Origin: Catellatospora sp. TT07R-123
GTDB lineage: Bacteria; Actinomycetota; Actinomycetes; Mycobacteriales; Micromonosporaceae
Direction of reading: 5' to 3'
DNA: 64,000 nt
Assembly (NCBI RefSeq): GCF_018327705.1
Contig: NZ_BNEM01000001.1
Coordinates: forward strand, 3,224,001 to 3,288,000
This document shows, one piece after another, positions 10,323 to 37,880 of the stretch; position 1 is the first letter of the stretch, and each line of letters starts with the position of its first letter. A program made the translations under genes and the position numbers. The notes beneath the pieces were generated by a model. It was not told the DNA's origin. It worked only from the letters and a program-made list of their open reading frames with translations, and made no database searches.

Positions 10323-11369
10323 TCACTTCGCGTCGATCACCCGCAGTTCGTTGTGATCGATGTCGTAGTCGGCACCCTTGGCCGGCTGGAACACCGCGGC
10401 GATCTTGCCGCCGTCAGGCGACATCGTCACCCCGATCGACCGCCCCGGCGACACCTCGGTCACCGCGCCGGACGCCAGGTCCACCCGCCAGATGCCGTAC
10501 TTCGACTGCCACCGCGCCGAGACGAGCACGCTGCGGTCGTCCGGGTCCAGCCACGCGCCCAGCGGGTCGCCCAGACCCGTGACCACGGCGCTGGGCTGGC
10601 CGGCACCCGGCGTCCAGCGGTAGAGGTTCCACGGCTGGCCGGTCCGGTCGTTGCCCGACTTGCCCTGCGAGGTGGGCGAGGCGAACAGCACCAGGCTCTT
10701 GCCGTCCTTGCGCAGCATCGGCGTGTCGGCGCGGCCGTCGGCCGTGCACTCCGCCGCCGCGTCGCGGAACCAGGTGAAGTCGACCGCCCAGGTGTGGCCG
10801 TCGAACGTCACCGGTTCCGGCATCCGCTGGGCACCGTCCCGGCTGAGCCCGGCGATGCCCGCGCAGATCGCGGTGCTGTGCGCGACGTACCCCGTCTGGA
10901 GCCCGGGGGCCCAGGCGACGTTGCCCGCCGGGGTCCCGCCGAGCACCGCCAGCTCCTCGACCTTGCCGGTCGACGGGTCGAGGGCGATGAGGTCGAAGTG
11001 ATCCTTGCGCGGATCCTCCATCCCGCACCACCGGCCGAGCCCGAGCCTGCCGTCCGGCAGTGCCTGGAGGTTGCGGTAGTCGGTGTGCTCGCACCCCGCC
11101 TCGGCGGGCGGGTTCAGCCGCTCGGCCTTGCCGCCCTCCCTGGTCCGCCACAGCTGCGTGTCCGGCCCGTAGCCCGGGTCGCCGTGCAGCAGGTAGATGT
11201 ATCCGTCGGCGAGCCAGACCGGGCTGCTCAGCCACCCGGCCGGCGCGTCGAGCACGGTCCCGGCGGGTGCGGCCGCAGCCGGGGATTCCGCTCCCCCGCC
11301 GTGCCCGCAAGCGGCCAGGGCGAGTGCGGCCAGCACCGCGCCTCCCACTGCCCGCAGTCGCCTCTTCAT
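10323..11369 (-). CDS. Lipoprotein with beta-propeller-like repeats, coupled to the RHS gene
   Basis: A 348-residue lipoprotein: basic MKRRLR start, hydrophobic stretch, and lipobox LAAC with the lipidated cysteine at 21. The rest has recurring PD40/TolB-like blades (LPDGRLGLGRWC; LWLDPD-like AWLDPDDRSVLVSARW; VTMSPDGGKIAAVFQP). The ATG overlaps the stop of the upstream RHS gene as TGATG, so it is translated from the same message. No family name fits firmly. Its fixed position after the RHS toxin-like protein makes a cell-surface partner or immunity function possible, but that is inference; typical RHS immunity proteins are smaller and cytoplasmic. A longer open frame upstream lies inside the RHS gene and is not used. 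Confidence 0.75.
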   Translation of the reverse strand: MKRRLRAVGGAVLAALALAACGHGGGAESPAAAAPAGTVLDAPAGWLSSPVWLADGYIYLLHGDPGYGPDTQLWRTREGGKAERLNPPAEAGCEHTDYRNLQALPDGRLGLGRWCGMEDPRKDHFDLIALDPSTGKVEELAVLGGTPAGNVAWAPGLQTGYVAHSTAICAGIAGLSRDGAQRMPEPVTFDGHTWAVDFTWFRDAAAECTADGRADTPMLRKDGKSLVLFASPTSQGKSGNDRTGQPWNLYRWTPGAGQPSAVVTGLGDPLGAWLDPDDRSVLVSARWQSKYGIWRVDLASGAVTEVSPGRSIGVTMSPDGGKIAAVFQPAKGADYDIDHNELRVIDAK

Positions 11370-14300
11370 CACCAGTGTCCCTTCAGCCAGTTCCAGCACT
11401 CGTTGACGGCCTTGTTCCCGTACGTGGCCGCCTCCTGCACGCCCGACTGGATCTGCGTCGGGTTGCCGGTGACGATGCCCTCGACAGTCTGCTCGACCCC
11501 GCTGACCACGTGCCCGCCCAGGTAGGTCGGGTCGTGCTCGTGCGGGTCCAGCAGGGTGTGCGTGGCCGCCGCCCCGACCGCGCCGCACCGGGCGGCCAGC
11601 GCCGGACCTCCGACGAGGTTGCACAGACCGCTCGCCACGCCCGCCGCCACGGTGTCCGTCGCGCCCTGGTGCCGGAGCATGAACCGGTACGCGTGGGCGG
11701 CCGCCGCGAACGACAGCTCCTGCGGGGTGCCGATGGGCTGGCCCTGCTCGGTGGCGACGCCGTACCCGTACAGCGTCGTGGCCTCCTCGGCCTCGCTCCA
11801 CAGCTTGCGGCGGTAGTTGTTGTCCTTGTCGCCGCCGAGAGTGGCGCTGTACCGGAAGAACTTGGCCCACTTCTGGGCGCCCGGGTTGCCCATGCCGTCG
11901 CCCTTGCCCGTGGCGATGGCCAGGCCGCCCTGCACGCCGTGCAGGATCGTCGAGTCGACCCACGACGACCACGAGCCGGCCTTGGCCACCCCGTCGTCGA
12001 TCATGAAGTCGAGCACGCCTTCGATCTGGTGGAACCAGTCTTCCGAGTTGAACTGCTTGCCGTACAGGCTCAGCCACTCCTGCACGAGGGTCTTGCGCTG
12101 GACCACCGTCATGCTGTTGATGTCCTTGATCGTGCAGTTGAGCTTCGCTGCGCTGCACGGTAGCGGGTCCGGGTCCGGATTGCCGCCCCCACCGCCGCCA
12201 CCGCCACCGCCGCCGCCGCCCCCACCGCCGCCACCGCCACCGCCGGGGTTGGCGCCGCGGCAGTCGGTGTCGTCCATGCACACCCGCAGACCGGTCGGGT
12301 CGCTGGAGGACACCGGGGTGTTGTTGGCGTACGCGTAGCCGTTGAGCGACTGCGCGTCCGCCTGGTGGAAGTCGGGGTCGACGCTGACGAACCGGCCCAG
12401 TCCGCTGTCGTACTCACGGGCGCCCAGGTGGGTGAGGCCGGTCAGGTCGACGTCGCCGCCGACGAATCCCTTGCGGTTGGGCCAGGACGGGCTGGAGCCG
12501 CGCGCGTTGCCGAACGGGTCCTGCCGCCGCTGGCTGATCGCCTGGTTGCCCGAGGCGACCGTGGCCTGCGCCGTGCCCTGCGTGTCGGAGACGAGCCAGG
12601 TGAGCGAGCCGCCCGTGGTCACCGAGGCGCAGGTCTGGCCCTCCCAGCTGTAGTAGCGCGTCGCGGTGACCGCGCCGCTGGTCTTGTCCCGCCGGACCTC
12701 CTGGCCGGGCAGGTAGAGCGTGGTCGTGGCGGTGTCGCTGGCGATCAGGCGCTCGCCGGCGGCGGTGTAGATGTAGGTGGTGTCCGTGCTGGTCGCGGTC
12801 GCGGTGACCTTGGCCAGGCGGCCCTCCACGTCCCAGTTCAGCGCCTGGCCGGGCCGGGCGGTGGTGTTGCCGGACGCGTCGTAGGTGTAGTTGTCGGTGC
12901 GGTTGACGCCCGGCCCGCTGGTGGTGACGTACTGCACCCCGTGCGCGTTGGCCGCGGTGGCCGCCGGGTAGGTCGAGGTCGCGGTGGTGTCACCCGCGGC
13001 CGCGTGGCTGGTCTGCGTCTTGCGGGAACCGGCCGCGTCGAACGTCCACGACTGCCAGTACGGCGCCGGGCCGCCCAGCGTCGCGGCCGACTTCGGGTCG
13101 CCGCAGGCACCCGATGCGGGCGTCCACGCCTCGGCCAGGCGGCGTACGCCGTCGTAGCCGAAGCACTGGGTGTCCACCGCGCCACTGGCGGCCGTCTCCG
13201 CGACCTTGGTGACGTTGCCCATCGCGTCCCAGCCGTAGCTGGTGTCCGTCACCGGCTGCGGCGCGGTCTGGCGCAGGGTCTGCGACCGCTGGAGCCGCCG
13301 GGTGGCGTCGTCGTAGGTGAAGCTGCGCTGCACCCAGCTGCCGCCGGTGAGCTGGAGCTGCATGAAGCTCAGCTCGCCGAACGCGGTGTAGTCGGTGTTG
13401 CTGACGTACTGCCCGAAGCCGGGCGCGTTCGTCTGGAGCTGCTCGGCCAGGCCCGTCACCGGGTCGTAGGTGTAGGTCAGCGTCTCGGCGCCCAGCCCGC
13501 CCACGTTCGGGTAGCTCATCGTGGCCGGCGAACCGTCCACGAAGTACGACCGGGTCACCGAGTAGGTGCCGGCCAGGCCGGTCTGCGTCGCCGGGATCGT
13601 GTAGTCCTCACCCGTCGGCTGGTACAGCGGCGTGTAGCCGCGCACCTTGACCTTGTACTCGTCGGTGCCGACCCAGCGCGACGACGACGCCAGCTGGCCC
13701 TTGGCCCCGGCGGGGTCCCAGGCCCAGCTCGCCAGCTTGGCCCCGGAGGTCGAGCCGGCGAACTCGCCCGTCTGGCGGCCGTAGCCGTCATAGGTGTAGG
13801 CGATGGTCTGGGTCCGCGCGTCGGTCACGGAGCGCACCTCGCCGGAGTCGGCGTAGTCGACGCTGGCCGTGCCCTTGTCCGGGTCGTGCGTGACGGTCTG
13901 GCGGCCGAGCAGGTCGTACTCGTACGACCAGACCGAACCGGCGTTGTCGGTGAGCGTGTCCTGCTGGCCCTTGCGGTTGAAGTGGTAGACGGTCTGGTCG
14001 AACGTCGAGCGGGTGCCGCTGCCCACGTCGGCCGGGTCGTGGTACTGGCGCTGCTCGACCACGCGGCCGCGCACGTCGGTGAGCACGGTGGTGGCGGTGC
14101 CGCCGGTCGGCGGCGTGGTGCTGATCCGGTCGCCGCCGTAGGCGGTGGTCGTCGCCCACAGGTTCGTCCCGGCCGACTGCGCGATCGAGACGATCAGGCG
14201 GCCGGCCCGGTCGTACTGGCTCACCGCGCGGTTCTTCGGCTGCCAGTCCAGGATGGTGAACAGCGTGGTGGACGGCTGGACGGTCGCGTCGAAGTGCTTC

Positions 14301-17300
14301 GACACGCTCGCCGTACGCCCGAGGGCGTCGTACTTGGTCTCGGCGAAGACGGTGCCGATGTTGCCGGCCGCCATCGACAGCGACTGCGACTGCCGCTGGC
14401 GCAGCATGCCGTCGTAGAGGGCGTACGAGGTGATGTAGTTGCCCGAGGCGTTGAGCTTCTGGCTGGTCACCGCGTTGGCCCCGCCGCTGTTGCGGATCAG
14501 GTACGCGTACTGCGAGTTCGGCTGGGCGGGGTAGGTGGCCTTGAGGTGGTTGGGCAGCCACACCTGGGTCAGCCGGCCGAGGCCGTCGTAGGTGAGGTCG
14601 GTGCGCCGGTTGTTCACGTCGACCGTGGCGGTCGGCGTACCCCAGGAAGGCTCGACGGTGTTGGTCGTCGTGCCCAGGCCGGTGGTCTCCGCGATCTGCG
14701 TGACCGGGCCGCCCGAGGCCGGGGTGTAGGCGTGCGTGGTGTGGTTGCCGCGCACGTCGGTGGCGTCGGTCGACCGGCCGTACGCGTCGTAGCTCGCGGT
14801 GGACTGGGTGACCCAGCTCGGGCCGCCCGCCAGGGTCCACGACTTCGCCGCGTCCACCTGGGTCGGCTCGCCCTTGACCGGGGCGGCGCCGATGGCCTGG
14901 TGGTCGTAGAAGGTGCGGCTCATCCCGATCACGTCGGCGTCGGTCGCGGCGCTGGCGGCGCAGGTCACGGCGTACGTCTCGGTCTGGCTGACCAGCGACA
15001 GCATGTTCTTGACGAGGTTGCGGTTGTAGGTGGTCTTGGTGCACTGCTCGTCGTTGCTCGCCGAGGCGTCGCCGAGGTCCTCGACCTGCGCCGGGGCGCC
15101 GTAGGAGTCGAACGTGGTGTTGGACCGCGTGACCCGCCAGCCGCCCGCGGCCAGCGCGGTCGCCGCCCACGTCGACTTGGTGCCGGTGTAGCGCGCGTAG
15201 ACGGTGGTGTCGCCCATGTCGCGCGAGGCGGTCGCGGTCGACTGCCACGGCTCGTTGGCCGTGACGGACAGCGGCGCCGACTCGACGCCGTTGAACACGG
15301 TGGACTTGCGGACCTGCCCGGCGTAGCCGTTCTCGTCGTTGACGACGGGGGCGTCCGCGACGTCGGCGGTGTCGCCGTCGCCGTTGAGGTCCAGCGCCGG
15401 CAGCGTGACGATCCGGGTGCCGCCCGCCCCGTTGAGGTCGCCGTGCATGCCGCGGAAGAAGACGCTCTCCGACAGCGACTCGGTGCCCGAGCCGGGCTCG
15501 CCCACGCGGGTGTTGACCTGGCTGTAGCCGCGGAAGTCCGACCAGGTGCGCAGCTTGTCCTTGGTGATGCCGTCGTCGTCGGTGTGCCGCCAGGCGGGGG
15601 TGCCGACGTACTCGTAGGAGGTCACGACGTCCGGGCTGCCGCCGGTGAGGTCGGCGGCGGTCACCGAGGTGACCAGGTACTTGTGGAAGTACTCGGTCTT
15701 GAGCGACTTGTCCGGCTGCTCCTCCAGCACCGGGTAGCAGCGCAGGGTGTTGGCCTGCGGCGAGGCCGGCATGTGCGAGCCCGCGACGCAGTCCGGACCC
15801 GTGTACCGGATGTCGACCTTGCCGCCGGTGTCGGTCCAGATGGTGCCCATCCGCATCCAGTTCATCGCCGGCTTGCCGTCGGTGGCCGTGTCGACGCGGT
15901 TGGGCAGCTGGATCCAGTCGAAGTTGATCTCAGGCATGACCGGCGCCCCGGCCGCGATCGCCGGGCCGGTGGCCGTACCGGTGTGGACGATCGACTCCAG
16001 CCACAGGCCCGCCCGCGTGCCGTCGCCGGGGTCGGGGAAGTTGTGCGTCAGCGTCCAGACGTCGACGTTCTTGTACGCCGCCGCCACCGCGTCCCAGACC
16101 TTCGTCGTCACCGACGCCAGGCGCTTGGTCGACCAGAAGGTCGGCGCGTGGTTGGTGCAGGTGCTGCCGGTGCACTCCTGGTCCCACGGCACGTCCGGCC
16201 AGTGCGGCTGGTCGTGCGTGGCGCACGAGGACAGGCACCGGTCGGCCGCGGCGAAGACCACGCGCATCGGCGCGGCCGTGGCGGTGTTCTCGGTGTCGGT
16301 GCCCGAGCGGTTGTCGGTCCCGTAGTCGATGTGGTCCAGCACGCCGCCGCGCACGTAGCTCACCAGGTCGGAGTCGCTGTTGTTGCGGCCGTACTTGTTC
16401 GTCTCGGCGGTGTAGAACAGCGACATCGTGTTGCCGTGCACGTCGACGACGTAGTCGAGGTTCCAGCGCCACGCCTGGTTGCAGAACGACGCGATGTACC
16501 CGCTGGCGTGGCAGGGCTCGCCGGAGTTGTTGCCCGCCACCGGTTCGGTCCAGACCGAGCCGGTCGCCTTGTTCGCCGGGGCGGTACCGGTGTAGCCGGG
16601 CAGCCGGTTGAGGCCGAAGAAGTACTGGGTGCCGTCACCGGTGGTCACCCGCCAGTACTCGTTGTCGTTGTCGCCGTTGACGGTGTTGGTGAACCGCTCC
16701 ACCAGCGAGCCGTTGTCGTTCTTCAGCCGCCACTTGCCGCTGGTGCCGTCGCGGACGATCTCACCGCCGCTGCCGTTGAGCGACAGCGCCGCGTTGTCGG
16801 TCTTCCAGCACATGTCGCTGGTGTCGGTGGTGTTGTTCGCACCGCTGCCCTTGTCGTCGGCGCAGGTCGCGTACCGCCGCTCGATGTAGCCGGGCCAGTA
16901 GTCGAAGCCCTCGCCCACCCAGGTGGGCTGGTTGTTGCTGGTCTCGCTGCGCCCGTCGACCGCGGTCGAGGAGTACGACAGCCCCATCGACGGGGCCGGT
17001 CCGCCCAGCGACGGCGGGCTGCGCAGCGGGTACGACCAGGAGAAGTCACCGGTGTTGCCGCCGGCGTTCCAGGTCGAGGAGGCCTGGAGGTTGGTCGCGC
17101 CGTAGTCGCCGTCGCTGCCCGACGCGCCCGCGGACAGGGCCACCATCGTGCCGGAGGCCGACATCAGCGACACGTCGGCGGTGATGCGCTGCGCCGACAC
17201 GTCGTTGGTCGCGGCCAGCGGGGTGGCGGCGCAGCCGGGCGCGCCCGGCGTGGTCAGCGCGCAGTCGGGCACCTGGACCAGCCGCAGGCGGCGGTTCCAG

Positions 17301-17839
17301 CCCGCGCCGTAGGCCCCGGCGAACGACGAGTAGTCGATGCCGACCGCGGCCGCGCCCTGGCCGGTGCGCCCGTCGGCCCGCTTCACCCGGACCAGCAGGC
17401 TGTTTCGCCATGCGGCAGGGGTGTGCGCCCGGTCGAGCACGCTGACGTTGGCCTTGGCGACGCTGTCGGCGGCCTTGCGGTCCTTGCCGCGGCTCGGGCC
17501 GACCCAGACCGGCAGCGCGCCCGCCCGGGCCGCACCGGTGCCGACCGACACGTCCGCCGCGCCCGCGGTGGGCCAGCTCGGTGCCGTGCGCTTGGCGCCC
17601 GCGCCCTGGCTGAGGTCCTTCGGCCGGGCCGCCGCCGGCACCTTGGTGCCGTGCGCGGACGGGAGCTGCTGGGCCGTGAGCGTCTGCGGGCCCGGGGCCG
17701 CCTGCGCCGGGGCCGACATCAGCAGCACGTTGGCGACCATCGCCACGGTCGTCGCGATGATGGTCGCCAGTCTTCTGCGCGGTCGCGGTCGACCGCCGAG
17801 CGAACCGCCGCGGTCGCGGCGGGCATGCCTGGGTGGCAC
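11369..17839 (-). CDS. Large secreted RHS/YD-repeat protein with a variable C-terminal domain
   Basis: A 2156-residue surface or secreted protein of the RHS/polymorphic-toxin type. The GTG at 17839 is chosen because GGGAGG lies just upstream; an earlier ATG (17884) lacks a ribosome site. After a basic stretch and a signal segment ending SAPAQAAP come a sheath region and many YD repeats in about 1050-1760 (e.g. YDGLGRLTQVW, YDLLGRQTVTHDPD, YDGYGRQTGEFAG). The RHS core end is near 1790-1850 (GLTHLGAREYDSGLGRFVSVD, then NGYAYANNTPVSSSDPTGL). A run of 21 glycines (1866-1886) then links to a unique C-terminal domain of 270 residues containing GGHVVSGVEQTVEGIVTGNP. I do not recognise that domain; in this family it is usually the effector. 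A conserved palindrome (17977-18008) lies upstream. Confidence 0.9.
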   Translation of the reverse strand: MPPRHARRDRGGSLGGRPRPRRRLATIIATTVAMVANVLLMSAPAQAAPGPQTLTAQQLPSAHGTKVPAAARPKDLSQGAGAKRTAPSWPTAGAADVSVGTGAARAGALPVWVGPSRGKDRKAADSVAKANVSVLDRAHTPAAWRNSLLVRVKRADGRTGQGAAAVGIDYSSFAGAYGAGWNRRLRLVQVPDCALTTPGAPGCAATPLAATNDVSAQRITADVSLMSASGTMVALSAGASGSDGDYGATNLQASSTWNAGGNTGDFSWSYPLRSPPSLGGPAPSMGLSYSSTAVDGRSETSNNQPTWVGEGFDYWPGYIERRYATCADDKGSGANNTTDTSDMCWKTDNAALSLNGSGGEIVRDGTSGKWRLKNDNGSLVERFTNTVNGDNDNEYWRVTTGDGTQYFFGLNRLPGYTGTAPANKATGSVWTEPVAGNNSGEPCHASGYIASFCNQAWRWNLDYVVDVHGNTMSLFYTAETNKYGRNNSDSDLVSYVRGGVLDHIDYGTDNRSGTDTENTATAAPMRVVFAAADRCLSSCATHDQPHWPDVPWDQECTGSTCTNHAPTFWSTKRLASVTTKVWDAVAAAYKNVDVWTLTHNFPDPGDGTRAGLWLESIVHTGTATGPAIAAGAPVMPEINFDWIQLPNRVDTATDGKPAMNWMRMGTIWTDTGGKVDIRYTGPDCVAGSHMPASPQANTLRCYPVLEEQPDKSLKTEYFHKYLVTSVTAADLTGGSPDVVTSYEYVGTPAWRHTDDDGITKDKLRTWSDFRGYSQVNTRVGEPGSGTESLSESVFFRGMHGDLNGAGGTRIVTLPALDLNGDGDTADVADAPVVNDENGYAGQVRKSTVFNGVESAPLSVTANEPWQSTATASRDMGDTTVYARYTGTKSTWAATALAAGGWRVTRSNTTFDSYGAPAQVEDLGDASASNDEQCTKTTYNRNLVKNMLSLVSQTETYAVTCAASAATDADVIGMSRTFYDHQAIGAAPVKGEPTQVDAAKSWTLAGGPSWVTQSTASYDAYGRSTDATDVRGNHTTHAYTPASGGPVTQIAETTGLGTTTNTVEPSWGTPTATVDVNNRRTDLTYDGLGRLTQVWLPNHLKATYPAQPNSQYAYLIRNSGGANAVTSQKLNASGNYITSYALYDGMLRQRQSQSLSMAAGNIGTVFAETKYDALGRTASVSKHFDATVQPSTTLFTILDWQPKNRAVSQYDRAGRLIVSIAQSAGTNLWATTTAYGGDRISTTPPTGGTATTVLTDVRGRVVEQRQYHDPADVGSGTRSTFDQTVYHFNRKGQQDTLTDNAGSVWSYEYDLLGRQTVTHDPDKGTASVDYADSGEVRSVTDARTQTIAYTYDGYGRQTGEFAGSTSGAKLASWAWDPAGAKGQLASSSRWVGTDEYKVKVRGYTPLYQPTGEDYTIPATQTGLAGTYSVTRSYFVDGSPATMSYPNVGGLGAETLTYTYDPVTGLAEQLQTNAPGFGQYVSNTDYTAFGELSFMQLQLTGGSWVQRSFTYDDATRRLQRSQTLRQTAPQPVTDTSYGWDAMGNVTKVAETAASGAVDTQCFGYDGVRRLAEAWTPASGACGDPKSAATLGGPAPYWQSWTFDAAGSRKTQTSHAAAGDTTATSTYPAATAANAHGVQYVTTSGPGVNRTDNYTYDASGNTTARPGQALNWDVEGRLAKVTATATSTDTTYIYTAAGERLIASDTATTTLYLPGQEVRRDKTSGAVTATRYYSWEGQTCASVTTGGSLTWLVSDTQGTAQATVASGNQAISQRRQDPFGNARGSSPSWPNRKGFVGGDVDLTGLTHLGAREYDSGLGRFVSVDPDFHQADAQSLNGYAYANNTPVSSSDPTGLRVCMDDTDCRGANPGGGGGGGGGGGGGGGGGGGGGNPDPDPLPCSAAKLNCTIKDINSMTVVQRKTLVQEWLSLYGKQFNSEDWFHQIEGVLDFMIDDGVAKAGSWSSWVDSTILHGVQGGLAIATGKGDGMGNPGAQKWAKFFRYSATLGGDKDNNYRRKLWSEAEEATTLYGYGVATEQGQPIGTPQELSFAAAAHAYRFMLRHQGATDTVAAGVASGLCNLVGGPALAARCGAVGAAATHTLLDPHEHDPTYLGGHVVSGVEQTVEGIVTGNPTQIQSGVQEAATYGNKAVNECWNWLKGHW
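12182..12244 (-). repeat. (GGN)21 polyglycine microsatellite inside the RHS gene
   Basis: Twenty-one consecutive glycine codons, mainly GGC and GGT with some GGG, encode a flexible hinge between the RHS core and the C-terminal domain. The tract contains a roughly duplicated block of codons, so it probably grew by slippage or unequal exchange in steps of three bases. Confidence 0.9.
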
Positions 17840-17976
17840 GGTTCCTCCCGTGATAAAAGGGGTGAATCGGGCCGCGTACGACATGAGGGTGCGCGGCCCG
17901 CGAGGTGGTTGTCGGTTACCGGTGTCCGGTGAGCAAAGGCTGCCAAGGGCGGAGCCCGCTGTCACCGGCTCGGCAC

Positions 17977-18008
17977 TGAGAGGAAGCTGCTCTGACAGTT
18001 AGCTCTCA
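17977..18008. promoter_or_regulatory. Conserved palindrome A upstream of the RHS gene
   Basis: A 32-nt site with arms TGAGAG and CTCTCA and a central CTGACAG. It aligns with sites at 18523 and 20565. On the minus strand GGTGAC (17961-17966) follows after exactly 10 nt, as at the other two sites. It lies about 138 nt upstream of the RHS start. Probable operator for the island's regulator. Confidence 0.75.
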
Positions 18009-18059
18009 AGCGGTGCGACGGGACCGGCGGTCCGCACTGGAGGGTCCACCGCGCAACGG

Positions 18060-18099
18060 CCGCGGCCAGGCCGGGGAGATTCTCCCGGCCTGGCCGCGG
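18060..18099 (-). terminator. Terminator after the 87-residue gene
   Basis: A 16-bp perfect stem, CCGCGGCCAGGCCGGG with its complement at 18084-18099, around an 8-nt loop. It separates the 87-residue gene from the RHS promoter region. Confidence 0.75.
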
Positions 18100-18126
18100 T
18101 ATGCCCGATGCGGGCCGGTCCCCCGC

Positions 18127-18390
18127 TCAGCCGCGCAGCCCCCAGCCGGGAAGCAGGACGGACAGGCGGGCGGCGAGAAGGTGCGCCATCACATCGGCCT
18201 CGTGCTGGTCGGCAGCCTGGAGGAAGAACGTCACCTCCAGGCGATCGCCCCTGATCGCCGCGTGCACGTGCTCCAGGAGCGGCTCGGCGCCCCCGGGCGC
18301 CTCCGCCAGCAACCGCCGCAGCCGCCGGCCGTCGGCGCTCACCGCCGCAGCCGCCGACTCCCGCACGAGCGTGGCTCTCGACATGTACAT
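18127..18390 (-). CDS. Small protein of unknown function (87 aa), paralogue of the 88-aa protein
   Basis: Unrecognised. The product is mostly helical and slightly basic, with no signal peptide or membrane helix. Its second half matches the neighbouring 88-residue protein: EHVHAAIRGDRLEVTFFLQA here, EHIHARAGPAGIDVVVFTVA there, then Q-x2-ADV and a C-terminal GW. The two are therefore paralogues with a compact alpha/beta fold. The start is ATG at 18390 (MYMSRATL); the ribosome site is weak, and a second in-frame ATG two codons on is possible. It has its own upstream copy of the island palindrome (18523-18553) and its own terminator, so it is a single-gene unit in the same regulon as the RHS gene. 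Confidence 0.65.
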   Translation of the reverse strand: MYMSRATLVRESAAAAVSADGRRLRRLLAEAPGGAEPLLEHVHAAIRGDRLEVTFFLQAADQHEADVMAHLLAARLSVLLPGWGLRG

Positions 18391-18522
18391 GAGACACCGT
18401 CTAACTGGTCAACTCGGAAACTCCCATCCCCGTACCGACCCCGCACCGCGGTCGCGGTCGGGGTCATCGCGCTGTCCGCTCAGGATGCCAATGTGGTCGG
18501 TGGTGCGTCACCAGCGGACACG

Positions 18523-18553
18523 TGAGAGCAACGTGGCTGACAGCTTGCTCTCA
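18523..18553. promoter_or_regulatory. Conserved palindrome B upstream of the 87-residue gene
   Basis: A 31-nt site with arms TGAGAGCAA and TTGCTCTCA and a central GGCTGACAGC. The minus-strand GGTGAC (18507-18512) follows after exactly 10 nt. It lies about 133 nt upstream of the ATG at 18390. Confidence 0.8.
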
Positions 18554-18582
18554 CCGGACCGCTCGGGCCGTACGCACGAAGA

Positions 18583-18625
18583 AGCGCCACGGCCGCCGAT
18601 CGAATCGATCGGCGGCCGTGGCGCT
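18583..18625 (-). terminator. Terminator after the 88-residue gene
   Basis: A 20-bp perfect stem (AGCGCCACGGCCGCCGATCG and its complement at 18606-18625) with a three-base loop, immediately downstream of the stop codon at 18628. Confidence 0.8.
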
Positions 18626-18627
18626 CG

Positions 18628-18894
18628 CTATGGAATGAATGCGGTCCACCCGCTCAGTACGGGGGCCGAGCGGATCGCCCGCCCGCACACGGCGGCGACG
18701 ATCACATCGGCGATGTCCTGCCCTGACGCGACGGTGAAGACCACTACGTCGATCCCGGCGGGCCCGGCGCGGGCGTGGATGTGCTCCACGCCGTCGGGCG
18801 GGGCCGCATGCAGCCAGAGCAGATCGACGACCTCGGCCGGCGACAGGCCGGGCGCCCCCCTCGGCGGCACCAGTCGGACGGTGGTCGTCAGCAT
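18628..18894 (-). CDS. Small protein of unknown function (88 aa), paralogue of the 87-aa protein
   Basis: Unrecognised, cytoplasmic by appearance. Residues 35-88 align with the 87-residue neighbour: GVEHIHARAGPAGIDVVVF, then QDIADVIVAA and LSGW. The ATG is at 18894, and the gene begins 10 nt after the stop of the 53-residue secreted peptide, so the two form a bicistronic unit. That places it under the promoter that faces the first TrmB-LuxR regulator and contains palindrome D. A role in peptide production, sensing or immunity is possible from context only. I know no characterised family to name. Confidence 0.65.
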   Translation of the reverse strand: MLTTTVRLVPPRGAPGLSPAEVVDLLWLHAAPPDGVEHIHARAGPAGIDVVVFTVASGQDIADVIVAAVCGRAIRSAPVLSGWTAFIP

Positions 18895-18904
18895 CGCGCC
18901 CTGG

Positions 18905-19066
18905 TTACGGGTGCACCGGGGGGACCGGCCAGATCAGACCGTCCGCCACCGGGTGGGCCGGGACCGCGCTGCCGGCCGAGTGGCCGATTCCGCTCAAACC
19001 TGCGACTACCGCCACCAGCAGGGCTGCCAGTGCGATTCCGGCACGCATACGAATGATCCTTCTCAT
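18905..19066 (-). CDS. Small secreted peptide precursor (53 aa), cassette 1
   Basis: A 53-residue product beginning MRRIIRMRAG, with a single hydrophobic core (IALAALLVAVVAGLSGIG) and a short polar tail ending ADGLIWPVPPVHP. It looks like a signal peptide with likely cleavage near SAGSA, leaving about 18 residues outside. The ATG at 19066 is chosen over longer frames because GGGGGA precedes it by a suitable distance. It is divergent from regulator 1 and followed by the 88-residue gene. The same arrangement (52-residue secreted peptide, divergent homologous regulator) recurs at 20299-20457. I infer a signalling peptide; a short surface peptide of another role cannot be excluded. Confidence 0.65.
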   Translation of the reverse strand: MRRIIRMRAGIALAALLVAVVAGLSGIGHSAGSAVPAHPVADGLIWPVPPVHP

Positions 19067-19162
19067 GGCTTTTCCCCCGGCGCTTTCCATCGATGACGAA
19101 TTGGGTTTCCCAGGCCCTCTGAGCCTGCCCTTCCCGATCCGCCGTGTCAGTACTGAGACATC

Positions 19163-19191
19163 GACCTGAAGCGGCATGGCCGTTTCAGGTC
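19163..19191. promoter_or_regulatory. Palindrome D between regulator 1 and its divergent peptide gene
   Basis: A near-perfect 29-nt palindrome with arms GACCTGAA and TTCAGGTC and a CGGC-type inner arm around CATG. It is centred about 96-111 nt from both divergent start codons. On the minus strand ACTGAC follows after 11 nt, resembling the GGTGAC seen 10 nt from palindromes A-C. Its sequence differs from A-C, which suggests a second binding specificity. Confidence 0.7.
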
Positions 19192-19272
19192 ACATCGGCG
19201 CCCGAGGATTCCGCGACAGTGATCGCTGCTGCACAATGATCGACGCGATCACGAGCCAACCCGGGGGTGGCA

Positions 19273-20247
19273 GTGTTGGAATCGGTAGGCCTCACCGCGG
19301 AGGCCGAAGCTGTGTATTTCACGATGGTCGATCACCCGCTGTGGGGGGTCGAGGACCTCGCCGCGCACATGCAGCTGTCGGAGGCCGCCGTCCGCGACGC
19401 GCTGGACGTGCTCGCCGAGCGCGCCCTCGTGCAGCCGCGGGCGCAGGACACCGGCGGCATGCGCGTGGTCAGCCCGCAGGCCGGGCTCACCATGCTGCTG
19501 GCCCAGGCCGAGGCCGACATCGCCCAGCGGCAGCGCCAGATCGAGGTGGCCCGCGCCACCATCTCCGCCATCGCCACCGAGCACGACAAGGTCCGCCGCC
19601 GCGACGAGATCATCCGGCTGGAGGGCTCCAGCGCCGTGCGCGGCCGCCTGATGGAGCTGGCGCCGGCCGTACAGAAGGAGTGCCTGACCTTCACCGCCCG
19701 CGCGGAGCTCACCGCCGAGGCGATCGACGCGGGGCGGCCGCTCAACCAGCTGCTGCTCGAACGAGGCGTCTCGATCCGCAACGTGTATCAAGAGAGCGTC
19801 CGCAACGACCCGACCATGTTCGCCTTCGCCAAGTGGATGGCCTCCAAAGGCGGCCGGAGCAGGACCGTTCCGTCTGTCCCCATGCGACTGATCATAATAG
19901 ACAGACGCGTCGCCATCATCCCCATCGACCCCGCTGATTCGACCCGGGGTGCGCTGGAGATCCGCAGCCCCGGCGTCATCGCCGCGCTGTGCATCCTGTT
20001 CGAGCAGGTCTGGGACTTCGCGACCCCGTTCGGCGAGTCGCCGAAGTCCGACGACCGCGGGCTCACCCCGCAGGAGCAGGCGCTGATGCGCCTGCTCGAC
20101 GCGGGGCACACCGACGAGTCCGCCGGCCGCAAGATCGGGCTCTCCGCGCGTACGGTGCGGCGGATCGTGTCCGAGCTCGCCGACCGGCTCGGCGTGGAGA
20201 GCCGGTTCCAGGCCGGGGCCGAGGCCGTCCGGCGGGGCTGGCTGTAG
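19273..20247 (+). CDS. TrmB-LuxR hybrid transcriptional regulator, cassette 1
   Basis: A 324-residue regulator with DNA-binding domains at both ends. Residues 1-60 form a TrmB-like winged helix (LESVGLTAEAEAVYFTMVDH, then AAVRDALDVLAERALV). A helical linker (IAQRQRQIEVARATISAIA) leads to a central TrmB/PLD-like ligand domain (RPLNQQ-type RPLNQLLLERGVSIRNVYQ; IEIRSPG-type LEIRSPGVIAAL). Residues about 263-324 are a LuxR-type HTH (LTPQEQALMRLLDAGHTDES, then LSARTVRRIVSELADRL). The GTG at 19273 aligns with the start of regulator 2 and has GGGGG upstream; a GTG two codons earlier is an alternative. It is divergent from the secreted peptide gene across palindrome D, its probable operator. Confidence 0.82.
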   Translation: MLESVGLTAEAEAVYFTMVDHPLWGVEDLAAHMQLSEAAVRDALDVLAERALVQPRAQDTGGMRVVSPQAGLTMLLAQAEADIAQRQRQIEVARATISAIATEHDKVRRRDEIIRLEGSSAVRGRLMELAPAVQKECLTFTARAELTAEAIDAGRPLNQLLLERGVSIRNVYQESVRNDPTMFAFAKWMASKGGRSRTVPSVPMRLIIIDRRVAIIPIDPADSTRGALEIRSPGVIAALCILFEQVWDFATPFGESPKSDDRGLTPQEQALMRLLDAGHTDESAGRKIGLSARTVRRIVSELADRLGVESRFQAGAEAVRRGWL

Positions 20248-20298
20248 CCGTGCGCGCCGTCGATCACGCACGCCCACGGGCCCGCCGGTGGTGGCCGC

Positions 20299-20457
20299 TC
20301 AGCCCCACTCGGACCCGCCGTCAGCGTGCGCCGTGACGGCGCCTCCGGGCGCGGCCGCGGCCGCTGTCGACGCGATCCCGGTGGCCGACCCGGCCAGCAG
20401 CCCGGCGAGCGCGATCATGGCCAGGCGCAGCGCGCCCATTCTGAAGGCAGCGTTCAT
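20299..20457 (-). CDS. Small secreted peptide precursor (52 aa), cassette 2
   Basis: A 52-residue product beginning MNAAFRMGALRLAMIALAG, with an Ala/Leu hydrophobic core and likely cleavage in the TAAAAA run, leaving about 16 residues ending AHADGGSEWG. The ATG at 20457 is used; the longer frame upstream has no signal-like start. It is divergent from regulator 2 with palindrome C between them. It lacks the second gene found in cassette 1 and has no obvious sequence identity to the first peptide outside the signal region. If each regulator reads its own peptide, the tails would be the specificity determinants. This is inference. Confidence 0.6.
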   Translation of the reverse strand: MNAAFRMGALRLAMIALAGLLAGSATGIASTAAAAAPGGAVTAHADGGSEWG

Positions 20458-20564
20458 CGTCAATCCCGTTCCCCTGAGACACCCCATGTCAATGCGGTCG
20501 GCGGGCCCACCACTCGCAGGAGAAATACTGGCGGCCGCTCGCGGCGATGTCACCGACGTGGAGC

Positions 20565-20595
20565 TGAGAGCAACGTGTCTTGACGGTTGCTCTCA
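20565..20595. promoter_or_regulatory. Conserved palindrome C between regulator 2 and its divergent peptide gene
   Basis: A 31-nt site with arms TGAGAGCAA and TTGCTCTCA around CGTGTCTTGACGG. The minus-strand GGTGAC (20549-20554) follows after exactly 10 nt. It lies 108 nt upstream of peptide 2 and 95 nt upstream of regulator 2. Confidence 0.8.
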
Positions 20596-20689: not shown

Positions 20690-21679
20690 ATGCTCGAGTC
20701 TCTTGGCCTGTCGGTCTCCGGCGAGGCCGTCTACCGGACGATGTTGGCCCACCGCTCCTGGGGTCTGGAGCGGATCGCCGACCACCTGGCCATGTCCAAG
20801 GGACAGGTCCGCTCGGCCCTGGACCAGCTGGCCGAGCTCGCCCTGCTCCACCCCTCCACCGAGGAGCCGGCGGGCTGGAGCGCGGTCGAGCCGTCGATCG
20901 GACTGTCCGCGCTGCTGGCGCGGGCCGAGTCCGAGATCCAGGAGCGGCGCCGCAGCATCGACGCCACCCGGGTCGCCATCACCGCCATCGCCCGCGAGCA
21001 CCTGGCCAAGGCCGATGCCAACGGCGGCGTACGCCTGGACGGCGTCGAGGCGGTGCGCACCCGGATGGCCGAGCTCAGCGCCGCGGTGGTCCGCGAGTGC
21101 GTGTCGCTGAACCCCAACGTCACGCAGACCCCCGACGCCAAGCAGGCCAGCCGCCCGCTCAACCAGCAGATGCTGGAGCGCGGCGTCGCGATCCGCTGCG
21201 TCTACCAGGACAGCTTCCGCAACGACCCGAACCTCGTCGGCTACGCGCGCTGGCTGACCGAACTCGGCGGCCGGGCCCGTACGGTGCCGATCGTGCCGAT
21301 CCTGATGGTGGTCTACGACCGCAGCACCGTGCTGCTGCCCCTCGATCCGGCCGACACCGGCCAGGGCGCGGTGGAGATCCGCAGCCCCGGCATCGCCACG
21401 CTGGCGTACGCGCTGTTCGAGCAGCTGTGGGCGTCCGGCCTGCCGTTCGGGCAGGCGCCCGCGCAGCAGGACGAGGAGGCCCTCAACGCGACCCAGCGCG
21501 AGCTGCTCGGCCTGCTGGCCGCCGGGCACACCGACGAGCTGGCGGCGCGGCGCCTGGGCGTCTCCCTGTCGACCGTACGGCGCCTGATGGCGGTGCTGAT
21601 GGAGCGCCTGGAGGCGCGCAGCCGGTTCCAGGCGGGCATCCACGCCGCCGAGCGCGGCTGGCTGCGTACCGACGCCTGA
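20690..21679 (+). CDS. TrmB-LuxR hybrid transcriptional regulator, cassette 2
   Basis: A 329-residue paralogue of regulator 1, colinear over its whole length. It has the N-terminal TrmB-like HTH (LESLGLSVSGEAVYRTMLAH), the linker, a central domain with RPLNQQMLERGVAIRCVYQD and the conserved FRNDPNLVGYARWL segment, then VEIRSPGIATLAYALFEQLW. A LuxR-type HTH starts at about 264 (LNATQRELLGLLAAGHTDEL, then VSLSTVRRLMAVLMERL). The start is ATG at 20690 with only a weak ribosome site. Palindrome C is immediately upstream, so this protein is the best candidate for binding A, B and C and hence for controlling the RHS gene. No ligand or family precedent that I can name. Confidence 0.82.
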   Translation: MLESLGLSVSGEAVYRTMLAHRSWGLERIADHLAMSKGQVRSALDQLAELALLHPSTEEPAGWSAVEPSIGLSALLARAESEIQERRRSIDATRVAITAIAREHLAKADANGGVRLDGVEAVRTRMAELSAAVVRECVSLNPNVTQTPDAKQASRPLNQQMLERGVAIRCVYQDSFRNDPNLVGYARWLTELGGRARTVPIVPILMVVYDRSTVLLPLDPADTGQGAVEIRSPGIATLAYALFEQLWASGLPFGQAPAQQDEEALNATQRELLGLLAAGHTDELAARRLGVSLSTVRRLMAVLMERLEARSRFQAGIHAAERGWLRTDA

Positions 21680-21716: not shown

Positions 21717-21775
21717 AAGTTGCCGGGCAATCGGGCGAATCTTGGACTCGTATTCGCCCGATTGCCCGGCAACTT
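21717..21775. repeat. Long palindrome after regulator 2
   Basis: The 24-nt perfect arms start AAGTTGCCGGGCAATCGGGC and end GAAT; the second arm starts ATTC. The loop is 11 nt. Outside, imperfect pairing continues (ATCGTGCAA with TTGCGCGAT). The GAAT-loop-ATTC apex is shared with the repeats at 7073 and 47277 although the stems differ. It lies between convergent genes. Confidence 0.75.
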
Positions 21776-21867: not shown

Positions 21868-24800
21868 TCAGGCGGCCGGCAGGGCCGCGGCCTCGCGGCT
21901 GTTGAGCACGCCCTGGTAGACCTTGACCTGGTCGATCAGGCCGCCGAAGTTGGCGGTCGTGCCGGTCGTGCCGACCAGCAGGCTGTCGGTGCTGTCCCAG
22001 CCGACCGCGTTGCTGCCCTCGCTCGTCTGGGCGACGCCGTCGACGTAGAGCTTGGTCTTGCCGGTCACCGCGTCGAAGACACCCGTGAGGTGCGTCCAGG
22101 TGCCGGGGACCGCCACCGCGGCGGAGGTCGCGTTGGCCCAGATGTAGCCGCCGCTGCCGTCCGGGGTGGCCATCGCGAACACGAACTTGCCGGAGGTGCC
22201 CGACACGAACAGCTTCGCCGCGGAGCTCGCCGTGGTGCCCTGGCGCAGGATCACCTGGTCGGCGCCGGTCAGCGCGTTGACGTTCACCCAGGCGGAGAAG
22301 GTCAGCGACTGGTCGGTGCGGACCACCGGGTGCTTCACCGCCTGGTCGTCGGTGGTGGAGGCGAAGCCGGTGACGCCGTCGACCGACAGGGCGTCGTTGC
22401 CGTCATGGCCGTTCAGGGCGAACGACGAGCTCGGCGGGGTGTTGATCCAGCCCGCGTCGAGGTTCAGCTGGCGGCCGAAGTACGCGCCGTCGATGACACT
22501 CGGGCAGTAGCAGTCCACGCCGCCGCTGAAGTCCCACGACCCGACCTGCATCGGCGACAGCAGACCGGTCTGGGCCGGGATCCCGTTGGCGGGGTCGGCG
22601 TCGGTGCCGTTGATGTCGTCGACGGTGACCGCGCGGTTCCACAGCCGCACGTCGGCGATCTGGCCGACCCCGGTGGTCATGCTGAGGCCGGCGCCGTACT
22701 TGGCCCAGCCCAGGTGCAGCTTTCCGCTGGACGCCCACGGCGTGGCGGCACGGGTCACCGTCTCGCCCAGCACGCCGTTGGTGTAGATCTTCATGGTCTT
22801 CTCGGACGCGTCGTAGACGGCGGTGATGTTCGTCCAGACGTTGAGCTTCGCCGGGGCGTGCGCGTAGCTGCCGCCGGTGGTCGTGGTGTCGGTGTCGTAC
22901 AGCGCGAAGGTCCACTGGCTCGTGTCGGGCATGTTGTAGATCGCGAACCCGCTGGTGTTCACGCCCTCCTGCGAGATCACCGCCCGGTAGTTGTTGGTCG
23001 CGTCCGTCAGGCGCACCCACACCGAGACGCTGAACGACTTGGTGGTGTCGATCTTCGCGCCGGTGGTCTTGGCGTCTCCGGAGGCGCCGAAGGTGGCCGC
23101 GGTGGCGCCCTGGTAGCGGCCGTTGGCCGTCCAGGTCACGTTCGTCGTGGTGAGCGCGGTGCTGCTGACCTGGTCGGTGAAGCCGTGGCCGCGGATGTCG
23201 TCCAGCGGCCAGTAGGCCAGCGCCGCCGACGGCGAGTCCACCAGGAACGTGTACGACGTGATCGGGCTGGGGGCGCCCGCCGGGTCCTTGCTCAGCACGT
23301 AGAGCGTGTTGAGGCCGTAGTGCGGCGGGGTGAGGTTCATCGTCGGGGACGCCTGGCCCGCGGCCACGGTCACCACGGTGGTGGGCGGCGTGGTCCAGCC
23401 GTACAGGTACGACGTGACGTCGGACCCGTTCGGGTCGCCCGCCGGCTCGCTGAAGACGAACTGGCCGGTCACACCGGGGCCGCCCGGGTGGGCGCAGGTG
23501 TCGACGTTGGCGGGCACGCACGACGGGTACGAGGTCGAGGTGACCACCGGCGCGGTCGGGGCGGAGGCGTTGACCGTGAAGTCACACCAGCCCGACCAGG
23601 GCGAGAGGTAGTTCGAGTTGTCCTTGGTCTGCACGCGGAACGAGTAGCTCTTGCCCTCGGCGGCGCTGCCCAGCGTCAGCGGCACCGACCCGACGTTGTT
23701 CGCGGGCTTGGACGGGCCCGCCACCTGGGTCGCGGTGCCCGAGGGCAGCTGCTTCCACTCGAACGTGGCGGTCAGCGTGTCGGCGGTGTCGACGTCGGCG
23801 TACTGCGCCTCAAGGGTGGGCGAGGTGGTGCCGATGGTGCCGCCGCAGGCGACGCCGTGCACCGGGGCCAGGTTGGCCGGGACGCTCGGGTCGGTGTCGA
23901 AGGTGACGCTCAGCGCGGGCACCGCGTGGCCGCCGGTGGTGGTGGCGGTGAAGAACTTCTTCCAGCGGTCCTGGGTGCTCTCGTACTGGTTGGTGCTGTT
24001 GCAGGCACACAGGCCGACCGTGTACGTCGAGTAGCTGGCGTCGGCCGCGGCCTGCAGGTCGTTCTTGAGCGTGGTGCCCGTGAACGAGACCAGCTGGTCC
24101 GGCTGGACCGAACCGCAGCCGCCCGCCTCGTTGGCGTGCGAGGCGGCCGAGGACAGCCAGATCGCGCTGGAGCCCAGCGGGCGCGTCGACCAGGCCATCC
24201 GGGCACCGCTGGCGGAGGTGATGTTGCCGTTGGGCCGGTACATGTGCGTGTACGTGTCACCGCACGACCAGGTGTGGTCGACCCAGATGTTCATCGACCC
24301 GCTGATGATGTTCTTGTTGTTGCCCTTCCAGGTCAGCGAGCCCGACGTGGACGGGAAGTCGAAGAACGAGCGGTAAAGGGTGCCGTCGTAGGTGTTCGGG
24401 CCGACCCAGGCCTGGCCGCCGACGTCCCAGTTCGAGTTGATGTTGTTGGCGTACGCCCACTTGGACGCGCCCGGACCGATCGCCGGGTCGATGTACAGCG
24501 GGAACACCGTCTTCGGGTCGGCCAGCTGCGCCGCGTCCGGGGTGAGCACGAAGTCCGTGTCGGTCGCGGCGGACACGCCCAGCGCCACCGACTTCGAGGC
24601 CACACCGGGGCGGGCCGCGGTCGAGACGAGGTCCGCGGACGGGTTGGCCCGGGCCGCGGCCAGCGTCGCCTGGCTGACGCCGGGCAGCACCTCGCCGGCG
24701 GCGGCCTGGTCGATCGAGGAGTCCCAGACCGAGGCGGCCGAGGTCAGCGCGATGGTCGACCCGGCGCCGTCGGCGAAGCGGACGCGGCCGTCCGGCAGCG

Positions 24801-25452
24801 TACGGGCCTTGGCGTCACCGCCGATCGCAAAGTGGATCTTGCGCAGCTTCGGGTTGGCCGCGGCGGCGGCGTTCTTGACCACCAGCACGTGCTGGAAACC
24901 GGTCGAGTTGGCGGTCACGGTGAGGTCGACCCCCGCCAGGACCTCCGCGTACGTCGCCGTCGAACCGTCGACGGTCGGCTTGGGCAGGTCGCCGCCCGGC
25001 CAGGTCATGGTGAACGTCGAACCGTGCTGGCGCAGCGTGACCAGCGGGCCCTTGCCGCCGCTGGAGAACTGGACGTCCACCGGGCTGGCGATCGGCTTGA
25101 CGGCGCCGTCGCCGCCGACGCTCAGGTTGGTGTTGACGTCGGCCCAGGCCCCGTTCGTGCCGCGCACCCACTGGGGCGCGATGTACGTCGTCATGGTGGA
25201 GGTGCCGTCGGGGTTGGCGAAGACCTGGCCGGTCTCGCTGCGTCCCGCCATGGCCTCGACCCTGGCACCGCACCGCGCCGCCATCTTGCCGGCGCTGTAC
25301 AGATCCTGCACCGTGTCGGCGCAGGTTGCGGGCGCGGCGGCGGCTGCTGCCTGGCCCACCTGCACCGACACCGTCGCCAGCGACGCGACAACCGCCGTCG
25401 TCACCAGCCCGGGGAGCCAGCGGCCCCCGCGGCCATGCCTTTTCCAGCTCAT
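21868..25452 (-). CDS. Large secreted protein with two LamG-like domains
   Basis: A 1194-residue secreted protein. After a basic start (MSWKRHGRGG) a signal peptide ends near QAAAAAAP. The N-terminal third carries strand repeats typical of actinobacterial wall proteins that accompany RHS proteins (GKGPLVTLRQHGSTFTMTWP; LAGVDLTVTANSTGFQHVLV). The middle holds DNRLRE-like and Fn3-like segments. Two LamG/concanavalin-type domains follow at about 740-930 (SVSVWVRLTDATNNY) and about 1005-1194 (LTFSAWVNVNALTGADQ; KLYVDGVAQ). In other actinobacteria, as I recall, such a protein is often encoded directly before the RHS protein. Here the regulator-peptide cassettes lie between them. It has no copy of palindromes A-D upstream that I can find. 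It probably binds glycans or assembles with RHS at the surface. Confidence 0.82.
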   Translation of the reverse strand: MSWKRHGRGGRWLPGLVTTAVVASLATVSVQVGQAAAAAAPATCADTVQDLYSAGKMAARCGARVEAMAGRSETGQVFANPDGTSTMTTYIAPQWVRGTNGAWADVNTNLSVGGDGAVKPIASPVDVQFSSGGKGPLVTLRQHGSTFTMTWPGGDLPKPTVDGSTATYAEVLAGVDLTVTANSTGFQHVLVVKNAAAAANPKLRKIHFAIGGDAKARTLPDGRVRFADGAGSTIALTSAASVWDSSIDQAAAGEVLPGVSQATLAAARANPSADLVSTAARPGVASKSVALGVSAATDTDFVLTPDAAQLADPKTVFPLYIDPAIGPGASKWAYANNINSNWDVGGQAWVGPNTYDGTLYRSFFDFPSTSGSLTWKGNNKNIISGSMNIWVDHTWSCGDTYTHMYRPNGNITSASGARMAWSTRPLGSSAIWLSSAASHANEAGGCGSVQPDQLVSFTGTTLKNDLQAAADASYSTYTVGLCACNSTNQYESTQDRWKKFFTATTTGGHAVPALSVTFDTDPSVPANLAPVHGVACGGTIGTTSPTLEAQYADVDTADTLTATFEWKQLPSGTATQVAGPSKPANNVGSVPLTLGSAAEGKSYSFRVQTKDNSNYLSPWSGWCDFTVNASAPTAPVVTSTSYPSCVPANVDTCAHPGGPGVTGQFVFSEPAGDPNGSDVTSYLYGWTTPPTTVVTVAAGQASPTMNLTPPHYGLNTLYVLSKDPAGAPSPITSYTFLVDSPSAALAYWPLDDIRGHGFTDQVSSTALTTTNVTWTANGRYQGATAATFGASGDAKTTGAKIDTTKSFSVSVWVRLTDATNNYRAVISQEGVNTSGFAIYNMPDTSQWTFALYDTDTTTTGGSYAHAPAKLNVWTNITAVYDASEKTMKIYTNGVLGETVTRAATPWASSGKLHLGWAKYGAGLSMTTGVGQIADVRLWNRAVTVDDINGTDADPANGIPAQTGLLSPMQVGSWDFSGGVDCYCPSVIDGAYFGRQLNLDAGWINTPPSSSFALNGHDGNDALSVDGVTGFASTTDDQAVKHPVVRTDQSLTFSAWVNVNALTGADQVILRQGTTASSAAKLFVSGTSGKFVFAMATPDGSGGYIWANATSAAVAVPGTWTHLTGVFDAVTGKTKLYVDGVAQTSEGSNAVGWDSTDSLLVGTTGTTANFGGLIDQVKVYQGVLNSREAAALPAA

Positions 25453-37848: not shown

Positions 37849-37880
37849 GCCGTTTCCCCGCTCCGCGCGGAAACGGCATG
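37846..37880 (-). promoter_or_regulatory. Hairpin over the deaminase start codon
   Basis: CATGCCGTTTCC (37846-37857) pairs perfectly with GGAAACGGCATG (37869-37880). In the mRNA one arm contains the GGAAA ribosome site and the AUG, so folding would sequester them. The surrounding gap (37849-37924) is one of only three breaks in the operon. Confidence 0.55.

Follow-up and report, generated by a model that had tools for sequence, protein, structure and literature searches.

Candidate operator-promoter sites upstream of an RHS gene in Catellatospora sp. TT07R-123 point to a possible peptide pheromone module

Which regulator controls the RHS gene of Catellatospora sp. TT07R-123, and what else does it control? 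The question is raised by a 64,000-nucleotide stretch of this genome (contig NZ_BNEM01000001.1, positions 3,224,001 to 3,288,000; hereafter the window, in whose numbering all coordinates are given), where an earlier note had described three palindromes upstream of minus-strand genes, one of them the RHS gene. To judge from their sequence and its recurrence elsewhere, these sites and the hexamers downstream of them are very probably operators with their promoters. They lie within a pair of modules, each of which contains a regulator gene, a short gene for a signal-like peptide with a tryptophan motif, and a gene of a family that we call p88.

Inspection of the window and pattern counts bear out the presence of three similar palindromes, all read on the minus strand. 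Sites B (18523..18553) and C (20565..20595) are 31 bp long and have the exact form TGAGAGCAA-N13-TTGCTCTCA, for which the chance expectation within the window is 0.00, while site A (17977..18008) is a 32-bp palindrome with seven of nine arm pairs, slightly diverged as had been reported. A, B and C are the predicted operators of the RHS gene, the gene for an 87-residue p88-family protein and the peptide 2 gene, respectively. The distances of 108-138 nt given earlier between sites and genes need correction: measured to the likely start codons they are 92 nt for RHS (ATG at 17884, the figure depending on the start codon chosen), 132 nt for the 87-residue protein (18390) and 107 nt for peptide 2 (20457). 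Random occurrence across the genome, which had been named as a ground for abandoning the motif, is not what a genome-wide scan found: in 9,171,706 bases TGAGAG-N19/20-CTCTCA is present at three places only, A, B and C, and a reversed-pattern control gave none. Conservation in relatives, the other ground named, gave a divided answer. The motif with 9-bp arms is absent from 299 of 299 other genomes among 300 drawn from the family, and is thus confined to the window strain, but the layout of the sites recurs in several genera.

That layout begins with the hexamer GGTGAC, which stands exactly 10 nt to the gene side of each site on the minus strand, as the earlier note had it, and looks like a -35 element. 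For the RHS gene it lies at 17961..17966 and is followed after an 18-nt spacer by a -10-like CAGCCT (17937-17942); for the 87-residue protein gene it lies at 18507..18512, with CATCCT at 18482-18487 and a 19-nt spacer; and for peptide 2 it lies at 20549..20554, with CAGTAT at 20525-20530 and an 18-nt spacer. Two perfect, terminator-like hairpins, one of 16 bp between the 87-residue protein gene and site A (18060..18099) and one of 21 bp between the gene for an 88-residue protein and site B (18583..18625), separate the units, and sites A and B therefore likely serve transcripts of their own.

To see whether this spacing recurs, 47 loci around regulator relatives (cited by L numbers) and the window were scanned for palindromes of 30-32 bp with TG..CA ends, followed after a gap by NNTGAC. 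Palindromes with at least seven of nine arm pairs gave 18 matches at a gap of 10, three of them the window's own and three away from any module, against a range of 0-7 across the 29 other gaps; the counts fall to 11 and 0-2 when eight arm pairs or more are required. In a side-by-side alignment of 20 sites, 15 rows have TGAC from offset 12 and 18 have NANNNT at offset 34, with NANNNT in three rows at most at any other of 70 offsets. Thirteen of these rows come from the layout scan, which is blind to the -10, and 11 of the 13 have NANNNT (L037 does not, and in site B it lies one base further). The other seven were picked with their flanks in view: L083, L105, L115, L119 and L124 were found by the palindrome only, site D (described below) by eye, and L097 with TGAC in the pattern. 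Left out of the alignment were L042, L084 and L088, near copies of L036, L083 and L087, and three palindromes with seven of nine pairs away from a module (L047:16424, L090 and L091); by eye, the first of these three has a fitting -10 and the other two do not.

Sites that lack TGAC keep the distances and differ in their -35 letters, which are CTTCCG/A in L105, L119, L124 and L144, ATTCAC in L083 and L084, and TGGCCC in L115. The arms also fall into types, TGGC....GCCA in many sites (often with the centre GCCNGGC), TGGACGG..CCGTCCA in another group and TGAGAGCAA/TTGCTCTCA here, and because they differ between regulators it is a grammar, not letters, that the site-bearing relatives have in common. 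Of 76 fetched regulator loci, 18 have a recognisable site (L018, L027, L030, L034, L036, L037, L041, L042, L082-L085, L087, L088, L105, L115, L119 and L124), as do both window modules. A strict form, TGGC-N8-GCCNGGC-N8-GCCA-N12-TGAC, has four matches in three of 150 genomes of the order: the site of the paralogous locus L018, the site of a LamG paralog discussed below, one in a genome of the same family with an adjoining regulator-like open reading frame (ORF), and one in another family. The proposal of a real operator plus promoter element thus gains support, since the same arrangement of palindrome, 10 nt, -35, 18 nt and -10 recurs beside part of the regulator's relatives. If the -10 ends at -7, the palindrome is centred at -62, and a position of about -61.5/-62 is that of class-I activators; the fixed 10-nt gap and 18-nt spacer of such a geometry are found here, with the -62 centre deduced from the position of the -10.

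Two plus-strand genes in the window encode candidate binders, regulator 1 (19267..20247) and regulator 2 (20690..21679), whose products are 48% identical. Each has a weak TrmB-like N-terminal match (PF01978, E 0.0012-0.0023, below the cut-off) and a C-terminal LuxR/GerE helix-turn-helix (HTH) domain (PF00196, above the cut-off, at 266-316 and 265-317); HTH_IclR and HTH_23 are also above their cut-offs over the same stretch of regulator 2. Neither regulator has a TPR domain, an XRE HTH or an autoinducer-binding domain among Pfam matches at E<=0.01, no receiver domain was found in Pfam, and none of the 53 PDB profile matches covers the middle part, at about positions 140-230. Regulator 2 had been named as the likeliest binder, and it emerges as the best candidate: it adjoins site C, the sites of many relatives lie by their own regulator and peptide, and regulator 1 has a separate site, D. 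On these grounds regulator 2 is likely to be the protein that binds A, B and C. The related suggestion that its own promoter carries site C holds for position, C being 94 nt from its start, and not for direction; the C promoter faces peptide 2, so that autoregulation of regulator 2 does not follow from it.

Site D (19163..19191, minus strand), the fourth site in the window, is an operator-like palindrome of module 1 with the form GACCTGAAAC-N9-GCTTCAGGTC and one imperfect pair. It lies before peptide 1 and shares the layout of A-C in other letters (arms TGACCTGAA/TTCAGGTCG), followed by the putative -35 ACTGAC (19146..19151, minus strand) and -10 CAGGCT (19122-19127), and the distance from its centre to the -35 equals that of B and C. 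A genome scan for D-like sites with spacers of 15-17 (D itself has 13) gave four places and three in the control, and so carries no information on D.

What signal might such regulators perceive? Next to the regulators, mostly on the opposite strand, stands a short ORF whose N-terminus is signal-like, with a tryptophan (Trp) motif close to the end. The window has two on the minus strand, peptide 1 (18905..19066; 53 residues, core VADGLIW) and peptide 2 (20299..20457; 52 residues, ending GGSEWG). The motif is GGNEWG in L082-L084, EGFGWG in Micromonospora and Salinispora, GFSWG in the S. griseus group, GFDW in L087 and L088 and TTAWE in L105 and L119. Some precursors carry the core three times (GIGWD in L144; DGFGW in L137:5442-5744, minus strand) or twice (L028, L034, L019, L091 and L119), and such multiple copies resemble multi-core pheromone or product precursors. 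Under a written rule, which was drawn up after the peptides had been seen, a Trp-ORF stands on the divergent strand in 28 of 72 modules (12 of the 28 being close Streptomyces relatives) and on the other strand in one of 72, and 20 rounds of shuffling gave a mean of 4.55 and a maximum of 9; the weak paralogs L021-L024 and the duplicates L086 and L104 were left out of this count. With inspection by eye added, the peptide is recognised at 24 of the 29 nearest relatives, at 7 of 11 loci from the same genus, at one of the seven paralogs in the own genome, at 7 of 29 loci from the class and in both window modules. Judged by eye, 15 of 21 sites stand before a short ORF that carries a Trp motif at its C-terminus. 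For the other six the downstream gene is RHS (site A), a gene for an M23 peptidase (L030) or a member of the p88 family (L018, L085, L115 and site B).

Peptide type also follows the regulator. On a tree of 37 regulators, seven shared peptide types on 24 rows require six changes, the minimum possible, with 13 rows that have no shared type left uncounted. Regulator 2 groups with those of L082-L084 (support 99/95), whose peptides end in GGNEWG where peptide 2 has GGSEWG. Co-inheritance of neighbours is partly expected, and therefore the tree supports the pairing and is not proof of recognition. A short signal-like peptide gene next to a regulator, a general feature of peptide quorum sensing, is thus present in the window, with secretion a prediction, and we lean towards the view that the peptide is the ligand of regulator 2.

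The third component is the p88 family, represented on the minus strand by the 87-residue protein of module 2 (18127..18390), under site B, and the 88-residue protein of module 1 (18628..18894), which starts 10 nt after peptide 1. The family has a near-invariant His and a near-invariant Trp, and the two proteins have no Pfam, NCBIfam or PADLOC family; a p88 profile gave a single PDB match at E 0.19, which is not credible. When sequence up to 4 kb from the regulators was searched iteratively, 43 p88 matches came to light in 77 stretches, including two in the window and one duplicate pair (L028 and L086). In the window genome the matches number five, the two here and three more that each adjoin one of the other three closest regulators. 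In genomes other than this one, 16 of 20 p88 matches have a regulator within 3 kb and four have none so close, by a comparison of distances in class genomes made by hand. Eight Streptomyces plasmid loci that were retrieved once the p88 model existed served as a fresh test (H1 and H3-H9 of ten listed, among 79 records; H2 nearly duplicates H1, as H10 does H9). Six of the eight have p88 (L141 and L142 do not) and six have a Trp-peptide by eye (L140 and L141 do not), two of them with three core copies. Regulator, peptide and p88 are thus linked at many loci, though not at all.

These observations can be joined in a model of a peptide-pheromone loop, for which we have moderate confidence on sequence grounds. 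A dimer of regulator 2 would bind the 31/32-bp palindrome, centred near -62, and recruit RNA polymerase to the weak promoter GGTGAC-18/19-NANNNT in the manner of a class-I activator, presumably acting by activation and not repression. It would thereby switch on peptide 2 (through C), the p88-family protein (through B), whose part in the loop is presumably an accessory one, and RHS (through A) as three separate units. Peptide 2 would be a secreted pheromone precursor, processed so that a C-terminal piece around GGSEWG builds up outside, re-enters the cell and makes regulator 2 active. The outcome would be a self-amplifying loop with RHS as an output, and a second loop, addressed independently through operator D, would consist of regulator 1, peptide 1 and the 88-residue protein.

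Several observations weigh against this model. The Trp-peptide is recognised at just 41 of 78 modules by rule and eye together, and both the motif rule and the tree labels were chosen after inspection, with many rows being close relatives and the same-genus ones not independent. At the fetched loci other than the 18 of 76 noted above no site of this kind was recognised. The full arrangement of palindrome, 10 nt and TGAC occurs at none of 29 class loci, four of which carry the palindrome with another -35, and in the S. griseus group 12 Streptomyces loci contain TGGC-N23-GCCA-like stretches of 31 bp, none with a TGAC -35. Only one of the eight fresh plasmid loci, L144, has the operator layout (perfect 9/9 arms, CTTCCG at -35 and CAGGAT at -10). 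The p88 gene is found in just 16 of the 29 class loci; among 296 class genomes, 20 have the regulator (E<=1e-55) and 14 have p88 (E<=1e-6), all 14 within those 20, so that six regulator genomes have no p88 match, and because the p88 model was partly trained on genomes among the 296 what carries information is that p88 is missing from the other 276. Relatives of RHS stand beside a module in the window alone and in none of the other fetched loci.

Other explanations must be set beside the pheromone model. Regulator 2 could use the sites while the peptide is itself an effector, akin to a bacteriocin or to a ribosomally synthesized and post-translationally modified peptide (RiPP); p88 would then be its partner or confer immunity, and RHS would be a weapon under the same control. 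Multi-copy cores such as those above are also found in product precursors, some modules lie near nonribosomal peptide synthetase (NRPS) or ATP-grasp genes, and RHS is a typical antagonism protein. Yet inspection by eye of the 12 listed loci and the eight plasmid loci shows no modifying enzyme or exporter that they share, the N-terminus is signal-like and core type tracks regulator clade, and in the window no gene in the same direction directly follows peptide 2; we regard the effector role as rather unlikely. The last point also bears on a very unlikely reading of the short ORF as a leader or arrest peptide, whose Trp motif would act as a stalling signal that controls translation of the downstream gene. 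A signal-like N-terminus with a conserved C-terminal motif near the stop recalls peptides of the SecM/TnaC type, and the short ORF is often directly upstream of p88, but the cores are duplicated or triplicated and the tails past the motif vary.

The sites themselves also admit other readings. Binding of A-C by regulator 1, or by both regulators, would amount to cross-talk between the modules, which the 48% identity of the two proteins, their location within a few kb of the sites and the use of same-geometry sites by relatives of regulator 1 (L087 and L088) would allow. We nonetheless consider it improbable, in that the region between peptide 1 and regulator 1 holds site D, which has other letters, and in many relatives the site adjoins the regulator's own peptide. 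Finally, as inverted repeats within an intergenic, hairpin-rich stretch, the palindromes might be terminators, RNA structures or mobile repeats that involve no regulator. This reading, to which we assign a minimal probability, is rejected: the fixed distances to -35 and -10 hold in several genera, there are just three copies in the genome, and the terminator-like perfect hairpins are located elsewhere.

The predicted output that raised the question is the RHS protein (11369..17884, minus strand), of 2171 residues, with an RHS repeat-associated core (Pfam and NCBIfam; TIGR03696, E 3e-15). About 300 residues past this core (11369-12200, minus strand) have no Pfam or NCBIfam match and possibly form a novel C-terminal domain. 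That the regulon contains the RHS gene, as was proposed, is supported because the three sites are unique in the genome and because a similar operator lies before a LamG paralog. This second operator, in the same genome (L097:7806-7836), is a weak palindrome with the full layout (TGGC..GCCAGGC..GCCA, 10 nt, GATGAC, 18 nt, GAGGCT) about 80 nt before a LamG gene (locus stretch L097:7806-11503) whose product is 56% identical over 1146 residues to the LamG protein of the window (21868-25452). The L115 locus also has a distant LamG relative (25%). In other loci the neighbours of the modules include secreted wall hydrolases or FG-GAP proteins, namely CHAP (L082), NlpC/P60 (L144), M23 (L030) and FG-GAP (L086 and L036), as well as a SARP-like regulator (L020), NRPS genes (L083 and, by eye, L085) and adenylation or ATP-grasp genes (L027); a direct upstream site is present among these named outputs at the L030 M23 gene and RHS only, the rest being adjacency. 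Since modules L083, L084, L085, L026 and L027 are near NRPS, carrier-protein, adenylation or ATP-grasp genes (L026, L084 and L085 by eye), their regulators are possibly cluster-situated regulators.

The module would work like a peptide pheromone system, by analogy with RRNPP/Rgg-SHP and ComR-XIP, which are peptide pheromone regulators of Firmicutes. In both, a gene for a secreted peptide (here predicted to be secreted) lies by that of a transcription factor with an operator upstream of the peptide gene, and peptide types are regulator-specific with an aromatic or hydrophobic C-terminus. Because neither a TPR domain nor an XRE HTH was found, however, the module is not a member of RRNPP; it has instead a TrmB-like and a LuxR-type HTH part, an unnamed middle and an extra p88. 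The DNA-binding domain is shared with LuxR/LuxI acyl-homoserine lactone systems, whereas here the Pfam matches include no autoinducer-binding domain and a peptide gene replaces the synthase. ComX-ComP-ComA likewise combines a Trp-containing peptide signal (here putative) with a LuxR-type HTH output, but the window regulators have no receiver domain. As at CRP class-I promoters, a weak core promoter would be preceded by a dimer site centred near -61.5/-62, here with a different regulator family and a 31-bp site. The output gene shares its RHS repeat and RHS core with the RHS/YD polymorphic toxins (PMC3482391), from which the unnamed C-terminal domain of the window protein sets it apart.

No description of such a module was found in the open-access literature by titles and abstract openings, most subscription papers and preprints lying outside that scope, and none of peptide-linked operator regulation of RHS in the open-access literature searched; passages of the reviews PMC4748050 and PMC13419125 name no such peptide-receptor pair in Actinobacteria. 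We consider it evenly balanced whether these modules represent an unreported class of peptide pheromone systems in Actinobacteria, in which Trp peptides, some of them present in two or three core copies per precursor, would be sensed intracellularly by TrmB-like/LuxR-type activators with an unnamed middle part and an accessory p88, each pair having its own 31/32-bp operator on a common promoter layout and being wired to strain-specific outputs (RHS/LamG surface proteins, secreted FG-GAP wall hydrolases, SARP regulators and NRPS clusters). The layout offers a simple sequence-based route to the targets of a pair. Actinobacteria are major antibiotic producers, and if the peptide is a signal, short synthetic peptides could switch on whichever RHS systems and silent clusters are wired to modules of this kind.

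Four further repeats were seen in the window and in Streptomyces. A perfect 24-bp inverted repeat, terminator-like, lies at 21717-21775, where the genes for regulator 2 and LamG converge, and a further palindrome with perfect 9-bp arms, TGCCGTTTC-N13-GAAACGGCA, at 37848-37878 has no TGAC at the 10-nt gap. In loci L038-L040, L043-L046, L048-L051 and L054 of the S. griseus group, two tandem 31-bp TGGC-N23-GCCA-like stretches lie between peptide and regulator, the first of them ending in CCG in some loci. An apparently different conserved element is found 3.4-5.1 kb past the regulator start in the Streptomyces loci L032, most of L038-L054 and L101, where a 32-bp palindrome, TGTGGGGGC-N14-GCCCCCACA, is followed by TGTATGCTC.

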